Below are positions 1 to 54,641 of a DNA stretch of 64,000 nucleotides, in pieces (position 1 is the first letter of the stretch; each line of letters begins with the position of its first letter). The DNA comes from Burkholderiales bacterium GJ-E10. Its GTDB lineage: Bacteria; Pseudomonadota; Gammaproteobacteria; Burkholderiales; Burkholderiaceae_F. The notes below the pieces were generated by a model that was not told the DNA's origin, ran no database searches, and worked only from the letters and a program-made list of their open reading frames with translations. The position numbers and the translations under genes were made by a program. The DNA lies in contig AP014683.1 of the NCBI GenBank assembly GCA_000828975.1, positions 2,189,700-2,253,699 on the forward strand. Direction: 5' to 3'.

Positions 1-1929
1 CTGCTTATAACGCCGCTCCGCGCGTACCCGGACATCGGCGATCAGGAAGACTTTCAAGGAGGCGTCGGGGAACACCACGGTTCCCATGTCGCGCCCGTCG
101 GCCACCAGGCCCGGCGGTCGGCGCTGTGCCCGCTGCAGCGCCAGCAGCGCCGTGCGCAACTCGCCGGCCGTGGCGATCCGCGACGCCGCCCGCCCGACCT
201 CTTCGCGGCGGATGGCCTCGGTGATGTCGCGCGCGCCCAGCGTGATCCGGCCGTCGGCAAAGCGCAGGCGCATCGCGGGATCCTCCGCCGCGGTGAGCGC
301 ATCCGCGACGGCCGCGAGCGCCGGCCCGTCGTCGAGCCCGACGCCCTGCTCGAGCGCCAGCAGGCCGACGATGCGGTAGAGCGCGCCGCTGTCCAGGCAG
401 GCGAACCCCAGTTCCTGGGCGACGCGCTGGGCGACCGCGCCCTTGCCCGAGGCGGTGGGGCCGTCGATGGCGATGACGGGGACACTCGGAGCGGCCACCC
501 TCACCCCCGCCCTCTCCCGCCCCGGCGGGAGAGAGGGTTCTTCCGCTCCCGCCCTCTGCAACCCGGGCGACGAAAATCCGGCGACCGCACCCGCGGCGGT
601 CCGTGTCAACGCGTCGAGCCGGTCGAAATAGTCCGGGTAGGTCTTCGCCACGCAGCCGGGATCCCGCACGTGCACCGGCACGCCCGCCGCCGCCGCCAGC
701 GAAAGGCACATCGCCATGCGGTGGTCGTCATAGGTGTCGATCCACGCCTCGCGGACCTGCTCCGGCGCCGTCACCGCGATCCAGTCGTCGCCGAACTCCA
801 CCTCCGCCCCGAGCTTGGTCAGCTCGGTGGCCATCGCGTGGATGCGATCCGTCTCCTTGACCCGCCAGGAGCCGATCCCCCGCAGCCGGGTCGTGCCGCG
901 GGCGAAAAGCGCCAGCACCGCGACGGTCATCGCGGCATCCGGAATCTCCGAGCAGTCCCAGTCGACGGGCTGAAGGACGAACCGGCCATCGACGCCGGTT
1001 CCTCCGCCCGCGGTCTCGATCCAGTCGTCGCCGATCGCCACCCGCGCGCCCATCTTCTCCAGCACCGTCGTGAATGCCACGTCGCCCTGCAGACTGTCCC
1101 GACCGACGCCACGCACGCGTACCGGACCGCCTGCGATCGCCCCCAGCGCGAGAAAATACGAGGCGCCCGACGCATCGCCCTCCACCGCATAACGGCCGGT
1201 CGGCGCGCAGTAGGCATCCGGGCCGACCACGTACGTGCCCGGCAGCGGTGCGCGCACGTCCGCGCCGAACTGCCGCATCATCGCGATGGTCATCGCCACG
1301 TAGGGCTGCGAGATCAGGTTGCCGTCGATCTCGATGGTCAGGCTTCGCCAGGCCGTGGCGCGCGCATAGCCCGGCGCCGCGAGCAGCAGGCCGGTGACGA
1401 ACTGGCTCGACACGGCCCCGCGTACCCGCACCCGCGGCACCAGCTTCCCGCGATCCGCCGGTTCGACCTGCAGGGGCGGATATCCCGGAGTCCCCGCGTA
1501 CCGCACCCGCGCCCCCATGCCGTTCACCGCGTCGACCAGATCGCCGATCGGCCGCTCGCGCATGCGAGCGACCCCGTCGAGCCGGTAGCGCCCGCCGGCA
1601 AACGCCAGCACCGCCGCCAGGGGACGCATCGCCGTGCCCGCATTGCCCAGGAACAGGTCCGCCTCGCGGTTCGGAAAATCGCCGCCGCAACCCGCCACGC
1701 GCACCCGGTCGCCGTCGACCTCGACCGCCACACCCAAGGTCCGCAGCGCCGCGATCATGACCCGCGTGTCATCGGCGTCGAGCACGCCGGAAAGTTCCGT
1801 CGCACCCTGTGCCAGCGCCGCCAGCAGCAGCGCGCGATTGGAAATGCTCTTCGAACCCGGAAGCCGTACCTCGCCCGCCGCACGGGCGATCGGCTCGACG
1901 GTCCGCACCGCCGCAGGGCTACTTTCCAT
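1..1929 (-). CDS. aroA-cmk: Bifunctional EPSP synthase / cytidylate kinase fusion (AroA-Cmk), 3' end cut by window edge
   Basis: One reading frame stays open from the ATG at 1929 to the left edge (643 codons, no stop). Residues 1-441 are 3-phosphoshikimate 1-carboxyvinyltransferase, the sixth shikimate-pathway enzyme, which joins shikimate-3-phosphate and [12 protein letters not shown] (Lys27) and [11 protein letters not shown] are visible. After a ~36-residue low-complexity linker (442-477) a cytidylate kinase domain starts, with a P-loop GPTASGKG at 490-497 and the later motif [14 protein letters not shown]; it phosphorylates CMP/dCMP. In relatives aroA and cmk are adjacent and usually separate. 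The linker coincides with a GC-rich palindromic repeat, so loss of a stop codon seems to have joined the genes. The repeat also supplies a purine-rich stretch before in-frame GTG codons at 504 and 498, so separate cmk translation is possible. The start lies 2 bp after the tyrA stop. Confidence 0.88.
496..537. repeat. GC-rich palindromic (REP-like) repeat inside the AroA-Cmk linker
   Basis: The core is a palindrome with arms at 510-521 (CCCTCTCCCGCC) and 524-537, flanked by CACCCTCACCC. Read on the minus strand, 496-520 is identical over 25 bases to 54435-54459 inside terC. Here it encodes the proline/glycine/arginine-rich linker between the two enzyme domains. The family resembles short interspersed palindromes found between genes in many proteobacteria; no transposase is nearby. 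Confidence 0.8.
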
Positions 1930-53357: not shown

Positions 53358-53401
53358 GGGGGCGGATTGTAGGCTGTTACCATCCGAGGTTTGGGCGGAG
53401 T

Positions 53402-53484
53402 CGCTCCCGCGGATGTCCGGTCCGCGCGCTCCTCCGCGCCCGATCTCGCTCCGATCGCACGCGGACCGGACATCCGCGGGAGCG
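53402..53484. repeat. 25-bp perfect inverted repeat between dnaE and terC
   Basis: Arms at 53402-53426 and 53460-53484 are exact reverse complements (the left arm begins CGCTCCCGCGGATGTCC), separated by a 33-base spacer. This lies in the intergenic region, 45 bp from the dnaE start and 24 bp from the terC start. A stem this long is unusual for a terminator and may be an operator, a mobile-element footprint or a genome-specific palindromic repeat. Confidence 0.85.
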
Positions 53485-53507
53485 GCAACGTTCGTCGGAC
53501 AGGCAGC

Positions 53508-54641
53508 GTGGACTTTTTATCGAGCTTCGACTACATCGCGCCCATCCTGCAGATCACCCTGATCGATCTGCTGCTGAGCGGCGACAACGCACTGGTCATC
53601 GCGATGGCCTGCGCCCACCTGCCGTCGGATGTCCGTCGCCGGGCGATGGTGCTCGGCACCTTCGCGGCAATCTTCTTCCGCGTGATCCTCACGCTCGTCG
53701 CCACCGTGGTGTTGCGAGTTCCCTACCTGAAGCTCGTCGGCGCCCTGGCGCTGTTGTGGATCGGCATCTCGCTGCTCGCGGACGACGAGGATGCCCGGCA
53801 GGCCTCCAAGGCCCGCAGCGCGGCGGCCGGACTCGGCAAGGCCATCGCCATCATCGTGAGCGCGGATCTGGTGATGAGCCTGGACAACGTCATCGCAGTC
53901 GCCGCCGCCGCGGAGGGTCATCTGTGGTTCCTGATCCTGGGCCTGCTCGGCAGCATTCCCGTGCTCCTCGTATCGAGCGTCCTCATCTCGCGGCTGCTCG
54001 ATGCCTACCCCTTCCTCATCCGCGCGGGCGGCGGATTGCTGGGATGGATCGCCGGGCGCACCGCGGTTTCCGACCCGGCCTATGCCGCCGCGCTCAACAC
54101 CAGTTCCTGGGGGCTGGTGGTCGCCGCGCCGGTGCTGGGCGCGGTCTACGTGCTGGGGCAGGCGCGGCTGCTGCGGCGCGAGCCGGGCGGCGCCCCTGCC
54201 CCCGCGCGCGCCGTGCCGGCGCAGAAGGAATCGGCTCCTCCGCCGCAGGAGCAGGAAACGCCGCTGCGCGGCGCCCCCCTCACCCTGCCCTCTCCCCCCG
54301 ATGGGGGGAGAGGGGGGAGTGCCTGGCCGAGATCCGCGAGCCACTCAACCCTGCCCTTTCCCCCCGATGGGGAGAGAGGAGGGAACGAAGCTGGGGCCGA
54401 GTTGCCAAGCGGCGAGCGACCCCCTCTCCCGCACGCGGGAGAGGGCGGGGGTGAGGGTGCGGAAACGAGGGCGAGCGCGGACTTTGCCCCCGACACGTCG
54501 GAGCCCGCCGCGCCCCCCCCGATCGCCCTACCGAAAAAACTCTCCCGGATGGATATGGCGATCATGGCCGGCATCGCGGTCCCGGTGCTGCTGTTTCTTG
54601 GCATGATCCTGTTTTTTGTCTGGAAAGCGGTTCGCCCGTAA
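53508..54641 (+). CDS. TerC-family membrane protein with repeat-derived insertion
   Basis: 377 residues, GTG start. Residues 1-225 form the TerC core: LIDLLLSGDNALVIAMA and SADLVMSLDNVIAVAAA carry the two Asp-Asn motifs of this cation exporter family, which has been linked to manganese/metal handling. Residues ~257-318 are encoded by three copies of the palindromic repeat, in frame. A final membrane helix (MDMAIMAGIAVPVLLFLG, ~351-372) closes the protein, so the insert would lie in a loop. The core begins at Met-less VDFLSSFDYIAPILQ; no strong Shine-Dalgarno. Confidence 0.82.
   Translation: MDFLSSFDYIAPILQITLIDLLLSGDNALVIAMACAHLPSDVRRRAMVLGTFAAIFFRVILTLVATVVLRVPYLKLVGALALLWIGISLLADDEDARQASKARSAAAGLGKAIAIIVSADLVMSLDNVIAVAAAAEGHLWFLILGLLGSIPVLLVSSVLISRLLDAYPFLIRAGGGLLGWIAGRTAVSDPAYAAALNTSSWGLVVAAPVLGAVYVLGQARLLRREPGGAPAPARAVPAQKESAPPPQEQETPLRGAPLTLPSPPDGGRGGSAWPRSASHSTLPFPPDGERGGNEAGAELPSGERPPLPHAGEGGGEGAETRASADFAPDTSEPAAPPPIALPKKLSRMDMAIMAGIAVPVLLFLGMILFFVWKAVRP
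54277..54459. repeat. Three GC-rich palindromic (REP-like) repeats inside terC
   Basis: Copy 1 (~54277-54319) and copy 2 (~54349-54392) share CCCTGCCCT..TCCCCCCGATGGGG; copy 3 (54421-54459) is in inverted orientation and includes 25 bases identical to the AroA-Cmk linker repeat. The cluster encodes a Pro/Gly/Arg-rich stretch without stop codons. Confidence 0.8.

Follow-up and report, generated by a model that had tools for sequence, protein, structure and literature searches.

Short palindromic repeats residing within protein-coding genes have been described before. GTAG and CGTC REPs were found inside unrelated genes, notably uvrA and other replication and repair genes, with the GTAG REPs going together with RAYTs and the CGTC REPs reported without a dedicated transposase (Di Nocera et al. 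2013, PMC3733652). Rickettsia palindromic elements (RPEs), which are about 150 bp long, likewise lie in frame in unrelated genes (PMC10969869). A separate line of work concerns VsrA, a DUF559 protein of Caulobacter that has been assigned to the PD-(D/E)XK superfamily, that a methylase mutant needs for its response to DNA damage, and that has been proposed to be a mismatch-repair endonuclease (PMC12907096).

The repeat described here was recognized in a window of 64,000 nucleotides, the whole stretch of DNA that was analyzed, which corresponds to positions 2189700-2253699 of a closed 3.28-Mb genome. Like the GTAG and CGTC REPs (PMC3733652), it is a multicopy short palindrome with intragenic copies, and here too uvrA (at two sites) and dnaX are among the genes hit; unlike them, it has a DUF559 gene as its partner, and neither the GTAG nor the CGTC unpaired tag was seen in its consensus, CACCCTCACCCCCGCCCTCTCCCGC-nn-GCGGGAGAGGGGG. 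It shares with the RPEs, as these are described (PMC10969869), the residence of palindromes in frame within unrelated genes, but the unit is only ~40 bp long, the genome has a GC content of 67%, and a nuclease-bearing form was identified. In-frame intragenic repeats as such are therefore a new example of a known phenomenon, since REPs lying in frame within genes, uvrA among them, were reported in 2013 (PMC3733652) and RPEs earlier (PMC10969869). The new part is that the repeat flanks DUF559 nuclease genes.

An earlier note had counted three copies in terC and one in aroA-cmk, sharing a 25-base identity on opposite strands. This proved correct: the sequence GCGGGAGAGGGCGGGGGTGAGGGTG occurs at 54435-54459 on the plus strand and at 496-520 on the minus strand, and a 21-base pattern spanning the head and one arm matches twice in the window, where dinucleotide shuffles predict 0.04 matches. 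In the whole genome a tolerant pattern (at most 2 mismatches) gave 71 matches, about 65 of which are convincing copies with a head and a hairpin, so that the family is a short imperfect palindrome with many copies per genome, as is characteristic of REPs and REPINs. The alignment of 60 copies defined a unit of ~40 bp, with little or no conservation beyond it, in which the head CACCCTCACCCCCG is followed by the hairpin CCCTCTCCCGC-nn-GCGGGAGAGGG (the 60-copy unit can also be written CACCCTCACCCCCG-CCCTCTCCCGC-nn-GCGGGAGAGGGGG). An Rfam scan of five REP-rich loci matched no family, and none of the papers listed by a literature search with the sequence CCCTCTCCC dealt with the repeat.

The loci of all copies were fetched and their genes were predicted with a self-trained caller based on codon usage. 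By this count, 28 of the 71 pattern matches overlap a gene and 43 do not, although the coding density across the fetched loci is ~88%. The REPs thus avoid genes and do not target them, and in-gene insertions are underrepresented, as expected if most of them are harmful. Intergenic copies, which form the majority, lie near gene ends, and their hairpin is strong. The proposal that the repeat "tolerates or exploits" protein linkers is supported in its first half, given copies in frame in many unrelated genes, and not in its second, given the overlap of 28/71 at ~88% coding density.

The genes that carry REPs include uvrA, bioA, malQ, hypF, dnaX, a polyketide synthase (PKS) gene and an OppDF-like ABC gene, among others. 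A double-length uvrA-like gene has two REP sites and the PKS gene six copies; in hypF the repeat lies inside the YrdC-like domain, in dnaX between domains III and V, in bioA and malQ deep within the gene, and it is also found within the genes for the OppDF-like double ABC protein and an exosortase-DUF3485 protein. Further copies mark the ends of rluD-like and MFS genes and the junction of a fused pair, exosortase-associated hydrolase 2 and hydrolase 1. The names bioA, rluD, oppDF and MFS are our reading of the sequence where no family match is cited. Directly after the REP in the uvrA-like open reading frame (L036), residues ~980 to 1050 form about five tandem 14-residue units, GEGVQxTDxGISYA, against about three copies of the unit in the sister genome G001.

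The occupied sites differ between sister species. Within the genus, strict-pattern counts are 0 in G003 and G004 and range from 10 to 43 in the other species (10 in G002 and 24 in G005). The bioA gene has a 63-nt in-frame insert that is absent from three sisters, including G001, and the linkers of dnaX, uvrA, hypF and the ABC gene are hypervariable, with different REPs in different species. Empty sites in relatives (comparisons of bioA, aroA-cmk and terC) bear out that one palindrome resides in frame in unrelated genes, the pattern that typifies the RPEs.

The terC gene (53508..54641, plus strand; the GTG start is the gene caller's choice and is uncertain) encodes a YjbE/TerC-family membrane protein consisting of a TerC domain (residues 54 to 223 of the open reading frame opening at 53391; PF03741, E 2.5e-41), a variable REP-bearing linker and a C-terminal transmembrane segment that is kept in 6/6 sister species. 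All three copies lie between the domain and the segment and are open in the terC frame. Copy 1 (54277-54317, plus strand) is the subvariant CCCTCACCCTGCCCTCTCCCCCCGATGGGGGGAGAGGGG, read as PLTLPSPPDGGRGG; copy 2 (54342-54383, plus strand) is degenerate and read as STLPFPPDGERGG; and copy 3 (54420-54459, minus strand) has the full consensus in the opposite orientation, with a 15-residue reading. G001 has copy 1 as well, and G005 has a diverged form of it; neither species has a counterpart of copy 2 or copy 3. G002 has a different, diverged REP-like stretch at the place of copy 3, and in G003, G004 and G006 the linker is rich in Ala and Pro and free of repeats. The sister sequences thus show a terC that gains repeats inside a variable linker. 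Upstream of terC, at 53403-53490 of the window, is a long inverted repeat (CGCGGATGTCCGGTCCGCG...) whose translation matches further places in the source and sister genomes; it is possibly a second dispersed palindrome family.

The earlier observation that the copies are stop-free in the frame of the gene is true but is weak evidence by itself, since the consensus has no stop in 5 of its 6 frames; for this reason stop-free frames were dropped as a sign of selection. The weight for in-frame residence is carried by the comparison of sister sequences. Among independent antisense intragenic copies, 12 of 13 use the GGGEG frame (one 12-residue peptide or near it), and only the copy in aroA-cmk gives the Arg-rich reading ...RERAGVRV (two-sided P = 0.003 for the choice of frame), a preference in keeping with selection for mild linker peptides. 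The intragenic REPs encode Pro/Gly/Ala/Glu-rich segments in linkers and loops.

The aroA-cmk copy (496..537, plus strand and antisense to the gene, with a 13-residue reading in the rarely used frame) lies in a continuous minus-strand frame between EPSP synthase (residues 12 to 438; aroA, 616..1929) and cytidylate kinase (residues 486 to 642; cmk, 1..474, cut by the window edge). In every sister whose junction was read (G001, G002, G003, G005 and G006), aroA and cmk are separate frames. In the three closest of these, G001, G002 and G005, whose aroA is ~80 to 90% identical, aroA abuts cmk in a different frame, the repeat is absent, and two conserved motifs are 74 nt apart, against 180 nt here. 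Relative to these three sisters, the fused frame coincides with a 106-nt REP-containing insert, and the insert, which coincides with the loss of the abutting stop and start, joins the two genes in one frame. The suggestion that the repeat helps gene fusion gains from this coincidence and from the second fused junction, that of the exosortase-associated hydrolases, where a REP is present both here and in G002. A separate start for cmk is a live alternative, because the repeat places a Shine-Dalgarno-like GAGAGGG, along with GTG codons, immediately before cmk: the REP would then make no fused protein and would provide cmk with its own ribosome binding site and GTG start while the AroA tail reads on. 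The GTG codons stand roughly where the ATG of the sister cmk genes stands, and this is the only antisense intragenic copy in the AGVRV frame, the 12 independent others being in GGGEG (P = 0.003). However, the aroA-cmk frame is continuous, without a stop, and bifunctional AroA-CMK is a recognized NCBIfam family (NF008816), which the protein matches with 778 bits, below the cutoff of 943. We regard the separate start as quite possible, if somewhat less probable than its opposite; it involves a single copy and does not conflict with an origin of the repeats from the elements described below.

Pairs of REPs spaced ~465 bp apart led to DUF559. Three elements of ~592 bp, 95 to 99.7% identical, lie at different sites in the genome, and each encloses one small gene encoding a DUF559 protein (PF04480, E 7.4e-41, 138.9 bits against a cutoff of 20.6). 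The REPs are inverted around the gene, with their heads inward and hairpins outward. The 12-bp inverted sequences CGGGGGTGAGGG/CCCTCACCCCCG stand around DUF559, and the hairpin is present on both sides. In two relatives, G017 and G016 (L201 and L203), a whole DUF559 element with REP-coded linkers lies in frame in metG, the gene for methionyl-tRNA synthetase, ahead of the C-terminal tRNA-binding domain. MITEs have terminal inverted repeats and a target-site duplication and are moved by a transposase acting in trans. No clean target-site duplication was established at the DUF559 element site for which the orthologous place in G001 was compared, which lacks a larger segment of ~1.5 kb. The true ends of the elements are uncertain, because the near-identity of the three copies runs ~30 to 40 bp past the REPs and because headless hairpins with the outer flanks of the DUF559 elements occur without DUF559 (L298 and L299; G000 666735-666833 and 2647056-2647151). 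These headless hairpins may be empty sites or may form a second family of repeats, and the hairpin may belong to the element or be its target. Another REP pair (L050; G000 1342605-1343164) surrounds an IS1182-like transposase fragment and not DUF559.

An AlphaFold model of DUF559 (29 sequences) had a pLDDT of 87, and Foldseek matched it to a DUF559-like protein (3hrl, E 7e-9), to I-Bth0305I (3r3p, E 1e-5, TM 0.70) and to Vsr (1cw0, E 0.01). Alignment columns D42, E53, D55 and H59 are conserved at 97 to 100% in the 29 sequences. DUF559 is thus predicted from the model to be a PD-(D/E)XK nuclease domain of the Vsr/I-Bth0305I fold type. As in I-Bth0305I and other Vsr-fold homing endonucleases, this nuclease fold would go together with the proposed selfish spread of a gene; unlike those enzymes, DUF559 is bounded by hairpins and present at several sites per genome, and no intron or intein was seen around it. 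The DUF559 and PD-(D/E)XK assignment is common to VsrA, for which the accessible part of the report proposes mismatch repair and contains no repeat association that we could find; the requirement for VsrA in Caulobacter suggests that DUF559 proteins are active in vivo (PMC12907096). The openly accessible literature on DUF559 and COG2852, to which most subscription journals do not belong, yielded no report that links the family to REP-like palindromes. We know of no demonstration that DUF559 cleaves REPs.

The flanks of DUF559 genes were compared in loci taken from a collection of bacterial and archaeal species; these loci were the 80 best matches to the subfamily and not a random sample; one locus with a run of Ns was excluded and 79 were scored. 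By their record titles the hosts include Proteobacteria, Chloroflexi, Desulfobacterota-type, Nitrospira-type, Elusimicrobia and others. Stems of at least 9 bp were present within 200 bp of DUF559 on the left in 63/79 loci, on the right in 57/79 and on both sides in 49/79, against 5/73, 3/73 and 0/73 in control windows 900 bp away. The left and right flanks align with each other as inverted repeats in 52/79 loci, against 0/76 controls, and mismatched pairs of loci reach the same score in ~10% of cases. The repeat sequences vary between lineages, and the DUF559 reading frames commonly continue into the right-hand repeat, with tails such as PHPNPLPQAGEG.

Among 61 related genomes, other genera and families also have DUF559 with an inverted repeat nearby, as in G011, with distances of 24 bp and 9 bp between the repeat and the gene match. 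Both DUF559 (E < 1e-25) and the REP were found in 9 of these genomes, DUF559 only in 5, the REP only in 6 and neither in 41 (P = 3e-4, or P = 0.003 without the genus, for species that are not independent of one another). In G002, with its 10 REPs, there was no DUF559 hit, and in G005, with its 24, the only hit was weak and fell within a larger protein; either REPs can therefore persist without DUF559 or DUF559 is not needed. A clean one-to-one correspondence between DUF559 and repeat variants (the CCTTCTCCCC type, 11 genomes) did not emerge: the repeats are multicopy, but variants are shared between genomes. In G016 and G011 (L186 and L202), another DUF559 subfamily is flanked by PPFGKGGQGGF-type peptides, which suggests that one more family of palindromes is linked with DUF559.

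We hypothesize, with a probability of roughly two in three, that the REP is a nonautonomous relative of a small mobile element made up of the gene for a DUF559 nuclease and two inverted copies that enclose it, and we infer that DUF559 cuts DNA and drives the mobility. DUF559 would nick or cut at the hairpin or close to it, and the unit would be copied into the break, which would spread both full, DUF559-bearing units and solo ones. REPs landing in coding DNA would mostly destroy the gene and be lost; the survivors would be those that keep the frame, lie in a linker or at a gene junction and add a mild Pro/Gly/Ala/Glu peptide. Less probably, DUF559 is a passenger and the palindromes spread through active insertion sequences, by recombination or by template switching between hairpins, as the REP pair around the IS1182-like fragment and the persistence of REPs in G002 without a DUF559 hit might indicate. 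A chance passenger is nevertheless unlikely, because DUF559 with hairpins on both sides is found repeatedly, in several phyla and with differing repeat sequences, and because flanks match within a locus in 52/79 cases, compared with ~10% between loci.

A mobilization of the repeats by the Y1/HUH transposase of the genome, as in classical REP/RAYT systems, appears more doubtful still. The earlier note had suggested looking for a RAYT-type transposase, and the genome does contain one Y1_Tnp gene (PF01797, E 4e-11) with a weak match of 70.7 bits to a REP transposase model. However, this score is below the NF047646 cutoff of 80, the gene is not flanked by REPs (the nearest copy is ~1.65 kb away, beyond another gene), and the repeat consensus has no GTAG or CGTC tag. 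Nor do such genes track the repeats within the genus: G003 and G004 have them but lack the repeats, and none was found in G005, with its 24 repeats. A RAYT is therefore not supported as the mobilizer. Least probable of all is that the repeats serve purely as intrinsic terminators or mRNA-stability hairpins, maintained for regulation; the strong hairpin and the location of most copies between genes, near gene ends, would agree with this, but many copies lie midgene and in both orientations, and the set of occupied sites changes from one sister species to another.

A wider reading has about even odds: that DUF559 represents a widespread class of mobile elements, comprising a nuclease of the Vsr/I-Bth0305I fold between inverted hairpins and 40-bp nonautonomous REP-like families in several phyla. 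Since both the unit and the nuclease would be read as tolerated in-frame linkers, such an element could spread through coding DNA, even that of the essential metG. DUF559 is a common bacterial family that is still listed as being of unknown function, and a systematic association with hairpins would give it a role. If the association is systematic, palindromes without a dedicated transposase, such as the CGTC REPs, would gain a candidate mobilizer, and both propositions are directly testable. It would also explain the odd Pro/Gly/Glu-rich inserts that recur in bacterial proteins, and aroA-cmk provides a case in which a new fused frame goes together with a 40-bp repeat.
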